From Tamlana sp. I1 (GTDB taxonomy: Bacteria > Bacteroidota > Bacteroidia > Flavobacteriales > Flavobacteriaceae): DNA of 64,000 nucleotides. Numbering within the stretch: the stretch's first letter is position 1; each line of letters begins with the position of its first letter. Made by a program: the position numbers and the translations under genes. Location: the NCBI RefSeq assembly GCF_015355625.1, contig NZ_JACLAF010000010.1, positions 62,001 to 126,000 of the forward strand, written 5' to 3'. Under the pieces are notes generated by a model. The model did no database searches and was not told where the DNA came from. It saw only the letters and a list, made by a program, of their open reading frames with translations. Shown piece after piece: positions 20,890-26,973 of the stretch.

Positions 20890-20897
20890 TAATTTTG
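20890..20897 (+). promoter_or_regulatory. Possible -7 element overlapping the lptD TTG start
   Basis: TAATTTTG matches TAnnTTTG exactly. Its last three bases are the TTG at 20895 taken as the lptD start. If it is a working promoter, translation must begin further on, for example at the in-frame TTG at 20946. Confidence 0.4.
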
Positions 20898-23669
20898 GCT
20901 TTTCAAAAACCGAGCCATACTTTTACAAAAATACATTTAAAAGCGTTGCGTACAAACCACTTTAAAATACTTTTTGCATTAAGTTTTACAGTGTTTATTA
21001 ACACATTTAGCTTTGCACAAGACCTACCTAAAAAGGAAACGAAAATTAACCGAAAGGTTAGCATCCCTCCTATTAAAGATAGTTTAGTGGTTAAATCTGA
21101 CAGTCTTGCTACTACCGAACTTTCAGAAAAAAGTCAGGATTCCATTTTAACAGATTCTATTAAGCCTAAAAAAGAACTTTTAGAAAACATTGTTAATTAT
21201 CATGCCGACGATTATACCAAATTTAACCAGAAAGAACATAAGTTATACCTCTATAATAACGCCAAAATAGTTTACGGCGATATGAATATTACAGCGGGCG
21301 ATATTACTATTGATTATAACAACAATACGGTATATGCCAAAGGAGTAACCGATAGTATTGAAGGGTATACCCAAAAACCTGTTTTTACACAAGGTAGTAA
21401 TGTTGTAGAGCCAGATTCTATTGTATTTAATACCGAATCGCAAAAAGCGCTTATTTACAATTCTAAAACGGCACAAGGTGAAGGTACTGTAATAGCAAAT
21501 ATCACTAAAAAAGAAAACGATTCCGTTTACTTTGTAAAAGACGCTAAATATACCACAGCAAAAGATCTTGAAGACCCAGATTACTACATAAAATTGCGAA
21601 AAGCTAAAATTGTTCCTGGGAAAAAAATTGTAACCGGTCTCGCCAATATTTTTATTTATGATGTACCTACTCCGGTGGGTTTACCTTTTGGGTTTTTCCC
21701 GCAAACGGAAACCCAAACCTCTGGGGTTATCATTCCTACTTTTGGTGAACAAAACGACCGTGGATACTTTTTACAAAATGGTGGGTATTATTTTGCCATT
21801 AGCGATTATATCGATTTAACGCTTTTAGGAGACTACTATACTAATGGTAGTTACGGATTACGATTTGAGAGTTCCTACGCAAAACGTTACCGTTTTAGAG
21901 GTAATTTTGGCTTTAGATACGAAAACCAAATTATTAGCGAACGTGGATTCCCAGACTACGCAAGAAGCACCATTTATAACTTGCGTTGGTCGCATAGTCA
22001 AGACTCTAAAGCCAATCCTAGTTCACGATTTTCGGCTTCGGTTAACTTAGGTAGTAGTCAGTATTATCAATTATCAAATAACCAAGTCAATATAAGTAAC
22101 CGTTTAAATAACACCTTATCGTCTTCGGTTTCATATTCTAAAACTTTTCAAGGGCAACCACAAGTAAACTATAGTGTTACAGCAACACATTCGCAAAACA
22201 CACAAACGCAAGCGATAAATATGACGCTACCAACATTTCAAGGTAGTATTGGTAGAATGTATCCTTTTGCATCAAAATCTGGTTCTAAAAAAGGAATTAT
22301 TGAAAATATAAATTTACAATATAACCTTCGTGCTGAAAACAGAATTGAAACTACCGATTCTTTATTTTTCAAAAAACAAATGTTTGACGATGCTAAAGCT
22401 GGCTTTAAACACACCATTCCGCTTACTACAAACTTTAAAGTATTTAAGCATTTTAGTGTAAGTGCCAACACCAGTTATAATGAAGTTTGGACTTTTAAAA
22501 CCATAAACAAACATTATGACCCAGTTGAAGATGAAGTTGTTACCGAAACCGTAAATGGCTTCGATTCTTTTAGAACTTATAATTTTAGCACAAGTATGGG
22601 AACGACCATTTATGGTATGTTTAATTTTGAAAAAGAGGGTGAAGACCGCAAAATAAAAGCCATACGACATGTTATGAGACCTTCGGTGAGTTATAACATA
22701 AATCCATCTTTCAGTAAATATTACGATACTTATGAGGTTATAGATGCCGATGGAAATACTACCGCCGATGTAGAATACACACGATTTGAAGGCGGTATTT
22801 TTGGAACCCCGAATAAAACCTTTTCTAGCGCCGTAGGGCTTTCGCTTTCAAATAATTTTGAAGCCAAAGTACGTGATAAGGATAGTACGGCTACGGAAGC
22901 TAAAAAAATTGTTTTACTTAATAATTTAAATTTCTCAACAGCATATAACGTCGCTGGCGATTCTTTAAACTGGAGCCCTATTCGTATGAGTGGCGGAACA
23001 CAATTATTTAAAAACCAATTAAACATAAACTTTGGCGCGACTTTAGACCCGTATGCCTTAGACAATAACAATGTTAGAATTGATAAGTTTAATATTGATA
23101 ATGGAGGTAGCTTATTTAGGTTAACTAGCGGAAATTTAACAGCTAGCTGGTCTTTATCTAATAAAGGTAATAAGGTTGACAAAAGTGGCTTAAGCAAAGA
23201 AAACCTTGAAGAAAACTTACAAGGTGGTGGTCGTGACGATGATTTATTTGGAGTTTCTGAAGATTATGTAAACGAACAAATGCGGGATTATGACGATGAT
23301 GATGAAGACGATACTCCAAGCGAATTTTACCATCATAAAATCCCTTGGAGCTTAAGGCTTGCTTATGCGATAAATTATGCGAATTCTCGAAGGCAAAACG
23401 AAATATCATCAAATTCCCTTATGTTCTCGGGAGACATCCAATTAACAGATAAATGGACGGTTGGTGCATCATCGGGATACGATTTTAAAAATCTTGGTTT
23501 TACAGCAACACAATTACGTTTTGAACGCGATTTATTAAGCTGGCGAATGAACTTTAGCTGGACACCTTTTGGTCCGTACAAATCATGGAATTTCTTTATT
23601 GGAATAAAATCGAGTCTTTTAAAAGATCTTAAATACGAAAAGCGACGTCAGCGCGATATTACTTTATAA
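20895..23669 (+). CDS. lptD: LPS-assembly protein LptD-like
   Basis: A 924-residue outer-membrane protein that inserts lipopolysaccharide into the outer leaflet. A hydrophobic signal segment, HFKILFALSFTVFINTFSFA, ends near residue 41. The N-terminal part is OstA-like: YLYNNAKIVYGDMNITAGDI, TVYAKGVTDS and FNTESQKALIYNSKT. Then PTPVGLPFGFFPQTETQTSG marks the start of a long barrel rich in aromatic strands that ends SFNFFIGIK...YEKRRQRDITL. Start choice is uncertain: TTG at 20895 gives a 17-residue longer N-terminus than TTG at 20946, and a TAnnTTTG motif overlaps the first. It faces the amidase across about 195 bases. Confidence 0.9.
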   Translation: MAFQKPSHTFTKIHLKALRTNHFKILFALSFTVFINTFSFAQDLPKKETKINRKVSIPPIKDSLVVKSDSLATTELSEKSQDSILTDSIKPKKELLENIVNYHADDYTKFNQKEHKLYLYNNAKIVYGDMNITAGDITIDYNNNTVYAKGVTDSIEGYTQKPVFTQGSNVVEPDSIVFNTESQKALIYNSKTAQGEGTVIANITKKENDSVYFVKDAKYTTAKDLEDPDYYIKLRKAKIVPGKKIVTGLANIFIYDVPTPVGLPFGFFPQTETQTSGVIIPTFGEQNDRGYFLQNGGYYFAISDYIDLTLLGDYYTNGSYGLRFESSYAKRYRFRGNFGFRYENQIISERGFPDYARSTIYNLRWSHSQDSKANPSSRFSASVNLGSSQYYQLSNNQVNISNRLNNTLSSSVSYSKTFQGQPQVNYSVTATHSQNTQTQAINMTLPTFQGSIGRMYPFASKSGSKKGIIENINLQYNLRAENRIETTDSLFFKKQMFDDAKAGFKHTIPLTTNFKVFKHFSVSANTSYNEVWTFKTINKHYDPVEDEVVTETVNGFDSFRTYNFSTSMGTTIYGMFNFEKEGEDRKIKAIRHVMRPSVSYNINPSFSKYYDTYEVIDADGNTTADVEYTRFEGGIFGTPNKTFSSAVGLSLSNNFEAKVRDKDSTATEAKKIVLLNNLNFSTAYNVAGDSLNWSPIRMSGGTQLFKNQLNINFGATLDPYALDNNNVRIDKFNIDNGGSLFRLTSGNLTASWSLSNKGNKVDKSGLSKENLEENLQGGGRDDDLFGVSEDYVNEQMRDYDDDDEDDTPSEFYHHKIPWSLRLAYAINYANSRRQNEISSNSLMFSGDIQLTDKWTVGASSGYDFKNLGFTATQLRFERDLLSWRMNFSWTPFGPYKSWNFFIGIKSSLLKDLKYEKRRQRDITL

Positions 23670-23710: not shown

Positions 23711-24091
23711 ATGAAAACAATCATTACAACTCCAAATGCCCCTGCTCCTATTGGGCCTTATAATCAAGCTATTTTAACTGGAAATACGCTATATACATCA
23801 GGGCAAATTGCAATAAACCCTAAGTCTGGAGAACTGGTTTTGGATAACATTGAAGCAGAAACGACTCAGGTTATGCAAAATGTTGAGGCCATTTTAAATG
23901 CTGCAAATATGACTTTTAGTAACGTGATTAAGACTTCTATATTTATAAGTAATATGGACGACTTTCAAAAAATTAATACTGTTTACGGCAGCTTTTTTGA
24001 TGACGAATCTGCTCCTGCTCGTGAAACCGTTCAAGTAGCACGATTACCAAAAGATGTTAACGTTGAAATAAGCGTGATTGCTGTGAAGTAA
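23711..24091 (+). CDS. ridA: RidA family enamine/imine deaminase
   Basis: A 126-residue protein of the RidA/YjgF family, which hydrolyses reactive 2-aminoacrylate and related imines made by PLP enzymes. The signature blocks are present: APAPIGPYNQAI at residues 10-21, LYTSGQIAINPKSGEL, TQVMQNVEAILNAANM, KTSIFISNMDDF, and APARETVQVARLPKDVNVEI at about 99-118, which holds the catalytic Arg. Length is exactly as expected. It lies 41 bases after lptD on the same strand and may be co-transcribed with it. Confidence 0.96.
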   Translation: MKTIITTPNAPAPIGPYNQAILTGNTLYTSGQIAINPKSGELVLDNIEAETTQVMQNVEAILNAANMTFSNVIKTSIFISNMDDFQKINTVYGSFFDDESAPARETVQVARLPKDVNVEISVIAVK

Positions 24092-24140: not shown

Positions 24141-24605
24141 TTATTCACCTTTAATTAATGCCTTATTAATATAATCGGGTGTTTCCTTTTTTACCATTTC
24201 CAACTTATGTTTAAAGTGTTTGGTTAGAAACTCCTTTTCCTTTGAATTTAAGCTATCTAGGGTGCCAATTGGCCCACAAAAACTAATATTTTCATCATTC
24301 TTGTGAATGAAAATTATAATAGGATAACCATTTTCTATAGATTTAAAATAGAAGCCATTATTTATTTCCATCATGTCGAGGTTTTTTTCAATCCCTTTTT
24401 TAGGAATTGACCGATCTAAAAAATAAGTGTATTTTACATTTTTTAATCTCGGACTATCAAAAGGGTTCCTATTCGGTGTTATATTATCAATTATTCCTTG
24501 AACTTCATAAAAGTCGGTTTCGTTGTAGTCTGAATATTTTTTTTCGAACTTACAAGAAAAAAATACAAATGGAAGAATTAATAGTATGGTTAATGTTTTT
24601 CTCAA
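24141..24605 (-). CDS. Hypothetical lipoprotein (154 aa)
   Basis: MRKTLTILLILPFVFFSC is a lipoprotein signal with lipobox FFSC (cysteine at residue 18). The rest is a soluble domain with alternating charged and aromatic stretches (YFLDRSIPKKGIEKNLDMME, GYPIIIFIHKNDENISFCGP) and a helical Lys/Glu-rich C-terminus. No known family is recognised. It is transcribed alone on the minus strand, convergent with ridA. Local base composition looks a little more AT-rich than the neighbours by eye, which could point to an accessory gene. Confidence 0.65.
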   Translation of the reverse strand: MRKTLTILLILPFVFFSCKFEKKYSDYNETDFYEVQGIIDNITPNRNPFDSPRLKNVKYTYFLDRSIPKKGIEKNLDMMEINNGFYFKSIENGYPIIIFIHKNDENISFCGPIGTLDSLNSKEKEFLTKHFKHKLEMVKKETPDYINKALIKGE

Positions 24606-24785: not shown

Positions 24786-25115
24786 TTATTTAATCGTTTG
24801 AATTTCTTCTTTTAATTTTGTTATATGACGGTTTAGAATTGCCCAGACAATCGTGTTATCTATACTGTCATATGCATGAACCAATCTGTTTCTAAATCCA
24901 ATTATCTGTTTAGCATTCTCGATTTCAAAACTTGGCTTTTCTTTTTTGAATTTGTTTAATGCTTCACCAATGATGACTAATTGTCTTTCTACAGCACTTT
25001 GTGTTTTTAAATCATCTTGATATGAGTTGTAGTCAGAGATATCAACTGTAAATTTTTCTATTAAATCTATAGCCATTAATATATCAGATAGATATTTCTT
25101 GCTTTTGTCCATCAT
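24786..25115 (-). CDS. hepT: HepT-like toxin (HEPN domain, DUF86)
   Basis: A 109-residue all-helical HEPN protein. The RNase motif Rx4HxY is visible as RNRLVHAY at about residues 74-81, after SAVERQLVIIGEALNKF, the usual dimer helix. HEPN toxins cleave RNA. The gene overlaps the upstream MntA-type nucleotidyltransferase by 32 bases in the same direction, the classic MNT-HEPN toxin-antitoxin arrangement, in which the nucleotidyltransferase inactivates the toxin by adding AMP to the motif tyrosine. Both key parts are intact here, so the pair is probably functional. The 180 bases downstream hold two short open frames without start codons. Confidence 0.92.
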   Translation of the reverse strand: MMDKSKKYLSDILMAIDLIEKFTVDISDYNSYQDDLKTQSAVERQLVIIGEALNKFKKEKPSFEIENAKQIIGFRNRLVHAYDSIDNTIVWAILNRHITKLKEEIQTIK

Positions 25116-25419
25116 AGATTAATATTTTGGTCGAGTCAATATTATTTTTTAGAACAGGATTTTTTATCGAAGCGTTGGTTAGTAAATCTACTTTTCTTTG
25201 AAAAAAATGTTCAAATTTATCCCAAATACTCATAAGACTTTCTCCTCGTTCTATTGGGTCGTCATTATCTATTTCAATTAACAAATCAATGTCACTGGTA
25301 TTTTCGTCGAATTCATCAGTAATAGAAGAGCCAAATGCATATAAACTCTTAACATTATGTGTTTTGCATAATATTAAAAAATCTGCAACTTTATATTTTA
25401 TAGATTCTTTTAAGTTCAT
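25084..25419 (-). CDS. mntA: MntA-like nucleotidyltransferase antitoxin
   Basis: A 111-residue minimal nucleotidyltransferase. The fold signature is YAFGSSITDEFDENTSDIDL (about residues 28-47), with GS then 11 residues before DID; the often-quoted spacing is 10, so there is one extra residue in this loop. A third acidic position is likely in VDLLTNASI (about 77-85). It would transfer AMP to the HepT tyrosine and silence the toxin. It is the first gene of the pair and overlaps hepT. The neighbouring genes (a lipoprotein and a hybrid kinase) are unrelated, in line with a mobile two-gene module. Confidence 0.9.
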   Translation of the reverse strand: MNLKESIKYKVADFLILCKTHNVKSLYAFGSSITDEFDENTSDIDLLIEIDNDDPIERGESLMSIWDKFEHFFQRKVDLLTNASIKNPVLKNNIDSTKILIYDGQKQEISI

Positions 25420-25569: not shown

Positions 25570-26973
25570 TCATTTTGAATACTTTATCAAAAGTGCTTTA
25601 AGTTTTGAAATTTCAATAGGTTTGGCTAGAAAATCATCAATTCCAGATTCTTTAGCTCTTATAATATCTTCTTCAAAAGCACTTGCTGAAACTGCTATTA
25701 TTGGCGTTTTATTTGTTATGTATTTGTTTGTTTCTTTTATAAGTTTTGTTGCTTCATAACCATCCATATCTGGCATATAAATATCCATAAATATTAAGTC
25801 GAAATCTAAAATTTTATAAAGTTCAACAGCTTCTAAACCATTTTTAACAAAAGTACAATCGGCACCTTGTTTCTCTAATAATGCTTTAATAACTTTTTGA
25901 TTTGTTCTGCTGTCTTCCGCAACTAATACATCTAACTTATTTCGTAATACAGGTTTGCTTTCTATTACATCTGTTTTTACATTTAAAGTCTTCTTCAGTT
26001 GTAATCCAAAATAGAACGCCGAGCCTTCATTTTCTTTACTTTCAAGCTGAAGTTCGCCTCCCATAAATTCAACAAGTTGATGCGAAATTGAAAGCCCCAT
26101 ACCTCCACCACGATAATCACGATATAAAACCGATTGAGATACATCGTCATGGTTATTAAAAATATAGTGTACTTCATCGGGACGCATACCTACGCCTGTG
26201 TCTTTAACATAAAAAGTTAAAAATAAATCATCATTATCTGCAATGGTTTGATCGACAATTACAGAAACTGTCCCCGAATTTGTAAACTTTATAGCGTTAT
26301 TTATTAAGTTAATAAGCACTTGCTGTATTTTAGAAGAATCGGCTAAAACTAAAAATTTCCCTTTTTCTTCTGATAAAAATTTATATTCAAAACCTAAGCC
26401 TTTCTCTAAAGCTTGGTATTCAAAAACTTTAAAAAGTTTTAATAAATCGGCTTTTAAATCAACCGATTTCAAATTCAATTTTAAATTTCCGCGTTCAACC
26501 AAAGCATTATCGGCTATCATATTTACCAATTGCAAGATGTGTAGTGAAGAATACTCGGCTATTTCTACTTCAGCCATTTGATCGGTGTCTAAATCGGCTT
26601 GTTTCAACATATTTAGCATACCTAAAACGGTACTTAACGGCGTACGAATTTCGTAACTCATATTCGCTAAATAAATGGATTTTTGATCGGCAACAATTTC
26701 GGCAGTTTCTAAATTGCGCTTCAATTCATCAATACGCAATTTTAAATTTGCTCTAACCACATCATTTTTTAGCTGATTTTTAAAAAAATATTGCAAGCCA
26801 AATACCTGAAGTACAGCAAGAACAAATAAAAATCCTGCAGCACAATCTGTGTATATTTTTTTCTCTAAAAAAAGAAATCCAATACTAAGAATTGATACGA
26901 TACTTAAAAAAATCAAGAATGATAATTTGTATTTTTTCTTAATGGATTTAATGAATTTTGGGACTAACCTCAT
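25570..26973 (-). CDS. Hybrid sensor kinase-like protein lacking the phospho-accepting histidine
   Basis: A 467-residue protein. Two membrane helices (about 18-35 and 42-61) are followed by a coiled segment, an H-box region, a HATPase_c domain and a receiver. The H-box reads ANMSYEIRTPLSTVLGML; the usual SHEIRTPL has a histidine where this protein has Tyr107 (codon at 26653-26655). The ATP-binding boxes look intact: INLINNAIKF (N), VKDTGVGM (G1), GGGMGLSISHQLVE (G2). The receiver (about 348-466) keeps Asp397 in FMDIYMPDMDG and Lys in FLAKPI. It may be a pseudokinase, a phosphatase, or a receiver fed by another kinase. There is no periplasmic domain to speak of. Confidence 0.9.
   Translation of the reverse strand: MRLVPKFIKSIKKKYKLSFLIFLSIVSILSIGFLFLEKKIYTDCAAGFLFVLAVLQVFGLQYFFKNQLKNDVVRANLKLRIDELKRNLETAEIVADQKSIYLANMSYEIRTPLSTVLGMLNMLKQADLDTDQMAEVEIAEYSSLHILQLVNMIADNALVERGNLKLNLKSVDLKADLLKLFKVFEYQALEKGLGFEYKFLSEEKGKFLVLADSSKIQQVLINLINNAIKFTNSGTVSVIVDQTIADNDDLFLTFYVKDTGVGMRPDEVHYIFNNHDDVSQSVLYRDYRGGGMGLSISHQLVEFMGGELQLESKENEGSAFYFGLQLKKTLNVKTDVIESKPVLRNKLDVLVAEDSRTNQKVIKALLEKQGADCTFVKNGLEAVELYKILDFDLIFMDIYMPDMDGYEATKLIKETNKYITNKTPIIAVSASAFEEDIIRAKESGIDDFLAKPIEISKLKALLIKYSK

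Follow-up and report, generated by a model that had tools for sequence, protein, structure and literature searches.

Few histidine pseudokinases have been studied to our knowledge. Replacement of the phospho-accepting histidine by tyrosine is already known from DivL and from the chloroplast sensor kinase (CSK) of some algae; neither of these proteins is known to have a fused receiver domain. DivL is described from alphaproteobacteria as neither a kinase nor a phosphatase. It stabilises DivK~P, and binding of DivK~P requires its residue R553 (PMC4211667). In CSK, the acceptor position is Tyr or Gln in green algae and Glu in higher plants; the Arabidopsis Glu form is reported to bind a nucleotide analogue and to show no autophosphorylation in vitro, the Tyr forms not being those assayed (PMC5054060). 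RetS of Pseudomonas, as described, drains phosphate from GacS, dephosphorylates the GacS receiver and blocks GacS autophosphorylation (PMC5992135). An evolved pseudokinase form of ChrS, with a frameshift in the CA domain, is reported to act via a partner kinase (PMC9491836).

The residues required for the two activities of HisKA proteins differ. In the proteins reported as tested, the acidic residue at H+1 is needed only for kinase activity and the Thr or Asn at H+4 only for phosphatase activity (PMC3510030). For example, CrdS H371A still dephosphorylates its partner quickly (half-life 2.6 min, compared with 0.7 for the wild type and 53.5 with none added), N375A, which alters H+4, shows no fast dephosphorylation (47.6), and the H+1 acid is required for the kinase but not the phosphatase activity (PMC3510030). 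In PleC, a His-to-Ala change abolishes both activities (cited in PMC3510030). The phosphatase activity of EnvZ and HK853 is reported to be stimulated by nucleotide in the CA domain (PMC7005713).

The window, which is the whole 64,000-nucleotide stretch of Tamlana sp. I1 DNA analysed, encodes a hybrid pseudo-histidine kinase of 467 amino acids at 25570..26973 (-), with the order TM1-TM2-HisKA-HATPase_c-receiver; the open reading frame, strand and coordinates are all exact. Pfam places HisKA at residues 98-153 (38.1 bits, cut-off 26.9), HATPase_c at 212-327 and Response_reg at 349-461, all above their cut-offs. It finds no PAS domain in the 467-residue protein, and a DUF6677 match in the transmembrane region was disregarded, as its score is below the cut-off. 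Among the best 25 of 142 NCBIfam families nearly all are kinase models, each scoring below its own cut-off. DHp helix alpha-1 and the H-box NMSYEIRTPL occupy residues 98-124 (26602..26682, -). Codon 107 is TAC, read from 26655 to 26653 on the minus strand (26653..26655), and puts Tyr at the phospho-acceptor site in place of His. A sequence-only reading of the window had reported an H-box SYEIRTPL with this Tyr107, and the open reading frame, the codon and the Pfam HisKA match bear it out. The H-box Thr (ExxT) is kept as Thr111 (26641..26643, -), the H+4 residue, reported to be phosphatase-specific in HisKA proteins (PMC3510030).

An AlphaFold2 model of the protein has a mean pLDDT of 82.2 and a pTM of 0.72. 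Its input was 51 sequences; the structure alignment used all the 52 named-genome orthologs except L035 and L052 (50 sequences). The N-terminal helices of the model (residues 7-36 and 42-124) are joined by a loop of about five residues, and the protein is therefore assigned two transmembrane helices and no periplasmic sensor domain, which agrees with the earlier description of two membrane helices and no large sensor. TM helix 1 runs over residues ~16-36 (26866..26928, -), with limits set by eye from the sequence and the model, and TM helix 2 over residues ~43-65 (26779..26847, -), also by eye. The CA domain (residues 212-327; 25993..26340, -) keeps the key N-box and G1-box residues. Its ATP lid, F-box and G2 region (residues 262-293; 26095..26190, -) is eroded; there is no Phe at F-box position 275, and G2 position 290 is Gly, not Thr. 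The receiver (residues 349-461; 25591..25929, -) has D397 and K451. The claim that the ATP and receiver sites are intact thus holds for the key N and G1 residues, D397 and K451, but fails for the eroded lid, where Phe275 and Thr290 are missing. Ranked by Foldseek against the model, known structures place ShkA first, GacS second, the RetS HK region third to sixth and DivL (4q20) 47th.

DivL shares with the window protein the HisKA-HATPase core, an inherited and conserved Tyr at the acceptor position, and an Arg matching R553; it differs in having N-terminal PAS domains, whereas the window protein has two transmembrane helices and a receiver. The Tyr of DivL is reported as conserved in the homologs compared, with one Ala (PMC4211667); the present locus, in contrast, has both His and Tyr forms. 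RetS is likewise a hybrid with a kept H-box Thr and a receiver, which in RetS is a working one. The ATP site of RetS is described as degenerate (PMC5992135); in the window protein the lid is eroded but the key N and G1 residues remain. RetS also retains its His, has a periplasmic sensor and carries more than one receiver (PMC5992135); the window protein has Tyr in place of the His, a single receiver and no sensor. CSK likewise lacks the acceptor His, but it is a plastid redox sensor with G1 and G2 boxes reported as modified in plants (PMC5054060). The next closest family consists of long flavobacterial hybrid kinases (L128-L136; ORFs of ~750-800 aa) of the same HisKA-HATPase-receiver type, which are 39-44% identical to the window protein. 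Unlike it, they have the acceptor His (9/9) and, by alignment column count, Phe275 (9/9) and Thr290 (8/9), as well as a large N-terminal region between the transmembrane helices, judged by eye. In a search of open-licence papers with narrow terms, none of the titles and abstract openings listed describes the window protein. Several of its features are apparently new, not having been seen described: the bacterial group, the sensorless protein with a fused receiver, a locus shared by His and Tyr orthologs, a change made repeatedly, and the TM2 motif discussed below.

Tyr is widespread among the relatives of this protein. A family draw covered 397 Flavobacteriaceae genomes, of which 63 have a match at E <= 1e-60; there are 71 matches in total, and 70 were read (one, G367:C75, was left out). 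With 54% identity or more, 47 matches are taken as orthologs: 36 have Tyr, the window genome included, and 11 have His. All 23 read among the 24 weaker matches (33-45% identity) have His. A second set of 52 orthologs (~52-80% identical), which partly overlaps the first, contains 43 Tyr and 9 His forms and includes Tamlana, Algibacter, Flavivirga, Flaviramulus, Mariniflexile, Seonamhaeicola, Aestuariibaculum, Confluentibacter and other genera. His forms are found in Confluentibacter, Marixanthotalea and two uncultured 'Flaviramulus'; three other Flaviramulus have Tyr. After 22 identical or contained sequences are taken from 108, there are 86 distinct rows (61 Tyr, 16 His and 9 outgroup), and position 107 is only ever Tyr or His (61 and 25, outgroup included). 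Tyr codons in 44 Tyr rows are TAT (33) and TAC (11). In the Tamlana sp. I1 genome, the family search finds 18 HisKA domains; 17 have His, and Tyr occurs only in the 467-residue protein. In five relatives, the 30 HisKA matches read out of 84 all have His; the known Tyr genes of these genomes are not among the 30.

The sequence-only reading proposed asking whether Tyr is fixed in close relatives: it predominates among the 47 orthologs, but 11 carry His. It also named two objections to itself. The first, His within the same genus, is not seen, as all nine Tamlana-titled orthologs and the same-genus genomes L082 and L083 have Tyr; the second, a sequencing error at 26653-26655, is excluded, since Tyr is present in 36 of the 47 orthologs from separate genomes. 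Judged by these sequences, Tyr107 is kept by selection and not by chance or error.

The gene has convergent RidA (Ribonuc_L-PSP; 23711..24091, +) and LptD (LptD_2; 20895..23669, +) as neighbours. Both are conserved: they lie near the gene in 50 of the 52 loci of the second set (not in L017 and L037) and in 18 of 18 further loci, L110-L127, which cover His forms as well as the Tyr forms L110, L125 and L126, the last two of them long. Neither was found in the nine outgroup stretches, which extend ~3 kb each side and less at contig ends. Because they share the LptD-RidA locus, His and Tyr forms are taken as true orthologs. No signalling gene is seen among the neighbours.

The least probable explanation of all is that this is a decaying ordinary kinase or a sequencing error, without a selected function. 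An in-frame TGA in L109 and damaged G2 regions in L122 and L109 are of the kind that decay would give. However, Tyr is shared by 36 of the 47 orthologs from the separate genomes counted above, the receiver and key N and G1 residues are invariant, and the locus is retained in the 50/52 and 18/18 loci. Median dN/dS is 0.094 for 34 Tyr pairs and 0.070 for 7 His pairs, these being the pairs with pS < 0.62 (34/946 and 7/36, respectively). A relaxed pseudogene is contradicted by this low dN/dS and by the invariant motifs. L109 itself is a Tyr ortholog near a contig end, with its TGA in the matched stretch; it may be a copy in decay or reflect a fault of assembly.

The history of the change was followed on a tree of the 86 distinct proteins, built with position 107 omitted and rooted on the nine long kinases. 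A minimum of three changes between His and Tyr is required, and three to four over 200 bootstrap trees. The simplest account of the sequences would be three His-to-Tyr changes: one in a main clade of 58 rows (all Tyr, window included), one in L110, and one in L125/L126. L110 is nested among the His forms L111, L112 and L114. AU tests reject all Tyr forms as a single clade (p 9e-62), the main clade with L110 (p 4e-5) and the main clade with L125/L126 (p 0.02); these groupings were named after the tree had been seen. L125/L126 is the weakest of the three origins. The rooted tree should be read with regard to long branches that meet (L131, L133, L136, and L115 with L122) and to the odd make-up of L131. 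With no outgroup, an unrooted tree of 53 rows required a single change and thus one Tyr origin; it is superseded by the count of at least three obtained with outgroups and more His forms. Since support for the main clade branch is weak (75/33), an alternative is possible in which His was regained in one subgroup, L044/L047/L111/L112/L114. By eye, the stretch between the transmembrane helices is ~130-145 residues in L125/L126 and larger in the outgroup, and has few residues in the other members of the locus. As this stretch is found only there, the sensor would have been lost along the way, if the outgroup represents the older state.

All 61 Tyr forms keep E108, R110, N222, N226, D258, G260, G262 and G293, together with E353, D354, D397, S429 and K451 of the receiver. 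The ATP lid is different. By column count, Phe275 is present in only 3 of the 58 main-clade Tyr forms (L015, L023 and L028; absent in 55) and 3 of the 16 His forms (L117, L121 and L127; absent in 13), and the G2 Thr is missing in most forms of both kinds. L125 and L126 have no Phe275 but keep Thr290. A loose F-x-x-F text search in the lid finds 4/61 Tyr, 9/16 His and 9/9 outgroup rows; the column count is preferred because the text search also matches unaligned Phe. Since erosion of the lid extends to nearly all Tyr and most His forms, the kinase may already have been weakened before Tyr appeared.

DHp alpha-1 changes most slowly by parsimony counts (3.85 changes per site in Tyr and 1.37 in His forms). 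As ratios of total changes to those in the receiver, Tyr and His forms have 1.78 and 1.72 for CA, 0.629 and 0.627 for the ATP lid, 0.141 and 0.177 for alpha-1, and 0.293 and 0.220 for DHp alpha-2. The CA ratio is alike in both, so there is no sign of a relaxed nucleotide domain in Tyr forms; alpha-2 may be somewhat relaxed in them.

These observations bear on two catalytic alternatives. A trans-acting kinase, whose ATP-binding CA domain phosphorylates the His of a second histidine kinase within a heterodimer, so that Tyr107 removes only its own acceptor, would be consistent with the key N, G1 and G2 residues present in nearly all Tyr forms, with invariant E108 and with a CA rate no higher than in His forms. 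It is nevertheless unlikely, as loss of the F-box Phe and G2 Thr from most Tyr and His forms suggests a weak kinase before Tyr arose. A tyrosine autokinase, with Tyr107 itself as phospho-acceptor, could explain why each replacement gives Tyr and no other residue, and why the kinase-specific E108 is invariant. It is very improbable. One transition turns CAY into TAY, which makes Tyr an easy replacement as well; erosion of the ATP lid also argues against an autokinase, and wild-type DivL is reported without autophosphorylation (PMC4211667). Phospho-Tyr, moreover, is not known to transfer phosphate to a receiver Asp in the way that phospho-His does.

The sequences support a kinase-dead protein whose receiver would be charged by something else, because the acceptor His is lost, the receiver active site is invariant and the ATP lid is eroded. 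This much stands of an earlier choice between a pseudokinase, a phosphatase-type protein and an externally driven receiver. An Hpt protein was not found in the Tamlana sp. I1 genome or in four of five other genomes of the genus, where a divergent Hpt may escape the search. Hpt is patchy, being present in 15 of the 40 genomes searched (own included) and in one of the five other genus members. Its absence from the window genome and four of five genus mates argues against the usual His-Asp-His relay. We infer that a receiver with neither its own His nor an Hpt obtains its phosphate from another kinase or a small phosphodonor.

The favoured proposal, held with somewhat less than even confidence, is a selected, sensorless, membrane-bound pseudo-histidine kinase that acts as a RetS-like phosphate sink or phosphatase restraining a partner kinase. 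The Tyr107 protein would not autophosphorylate on His, and phosphate would reach its receiver from a small phosphodonor or another kinase. The DHp-CA core would dock a phosphorylated receiver, either its own or that of the partner kinase, and speed its dephosphorylation. A built-in sink and phosphatase of this kind would restrain a partner kinase held through TM2 and DHp. By analogy with EnvZ and HK853, nucleotide stimulation of the phosphatase is a possible reason for keeping the N and G1 boxes. T111, which is Thr in 58/61 Tyr forms and in 7/16 His forms, and the invariant receiver site speak for this proposal, as does CrdS H371A, which dephosphorylates its partner quickly without the His. 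Against it are Ile at position 111 in the other three Tyr forms (L025, L031 and L084), the somewhat greater change of alpha-2, relative to the receiver, in Tyr than in His forms, and the two precedents of DivL, reported as neither kinase nor phosphatase, and PleC, which loses both activities with its His. E108 (H+1), present in 61/61 Tyr forms, is unexplained by the sink or phosphatase and argues against a pure phosphatase. No partner kinase has been identified for the window protein, which also counts against it.

E108 poses no difficulty for a DivL-like allosteric reader, in which the core would bind a phosphorylated receiver, fused or free, and leave it unchanged, while its conformation alters the activity of a partner kinase. 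Tyr107 occupies the same position as Y550 of DivL, which is described as non-catalytic and as sensing DivK~P (PMC4211667). R110, present in 61/61 Tyr forms, lies at the same distance from the Tyr as R553 of DivL; as it is also kept in all 16 His forms and the 9 outgroup proteins, it is only compatible with a reader. On its own, such a reader leaves the retention of T111 in 58/61 Tyr forms unexplained. Moreover, the PAS domains described for DivL (PMC4211667) have no counterpart found in the window protein, and DivL is described from another group, the alphaproteobacteria. The reader, though the main rival, is regarded as doubtful, and the RetS-like sink or phosphatase is favoured over it.

Of the 16 His forms, 7 have Thr and 9 have Ile at position 111. 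Ile (HEIRIPL) is seen in the His forms L049-L052, L054, L055, L057, L121 and L127, a loss opposite to that in the Tyr forms. On the sequence evidence, several lineages with the kinase His have lost the HisKA residue needed for phosphatase activity.

The main Tyr clade has a distinctive TM helix 2. The motif of this helix in the window protein comprises L49, Q56, L60, Q61, F63 and K65; in the clade, Q56 and L60 are found in 57/58, Q61 and F63 in 58/58, and K65 and K69 in 56/58. The helix averages 11.2 changes per site, despite the near-invariant Gln-Gln motif. Among the 19 other proteins of the locus Q56 occurs once (L124) and Q61 in none. The motif is absent from the Tyr lineages L110, L125 and L126, and is therefore characteristic of the main clade, not part of the His-to-Tyr change itself. 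Membrane-buried Gln pairs can drive helix-helix association, so it is reasonable to infer that the motif mediates partner binding or a tighter dimer. A longer history, possible and rather doubtful, would be that the hybrid kinase of this flavobacterial locus shed the periplasmic sensor and the lid Phe and changed His to Tyr in at least three lineages, the largest of which gained a partner-binding Gln-Gln pair in TM2, and that it reads or drains the phosphate of another kinase without sensing.

The reported conservation of the DivL Tyr in the homologs compared (PMC4211667) leaves little with which to compare DivL. Here, orthologs with His and Tyr in related species at the same locus offer a direct test of the effect of the change. 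They show what persists (the H+4 Thr and the receiver) and what both have largely lost (the ATP lid), and bear on the general question of how kinases evolve into pseudokinases. In this group of marine Flavobacteriaceae, the Tyr protein probably restrains or reads other signalling proteins and does not act as a kinase.

Two minor features of the window locus may be noted. A HepT-like (HEPN) and nucleotidyltransferase (MntA-like) gene pair lies between the kinase and RidA at 24786-25419 (-). Neither gene has a match (E 1e-8) at the 52 ortholog loci, most of which have the kinase and RidA nearly side by side; the pair is possibly a lineage-specific toxin-antitoxin insertion. Adjoining this pair, at 24141-24605 (-), is a gene for a 154-residue protein with a lipoprotein-like start, which has no Pfam match and no match in the 52 loci. 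In L044, the LptD match starts ~2 kb farther from RidA than in most of the 52 loci; this reflects either extra DNA or a match that covers only part of LptD.
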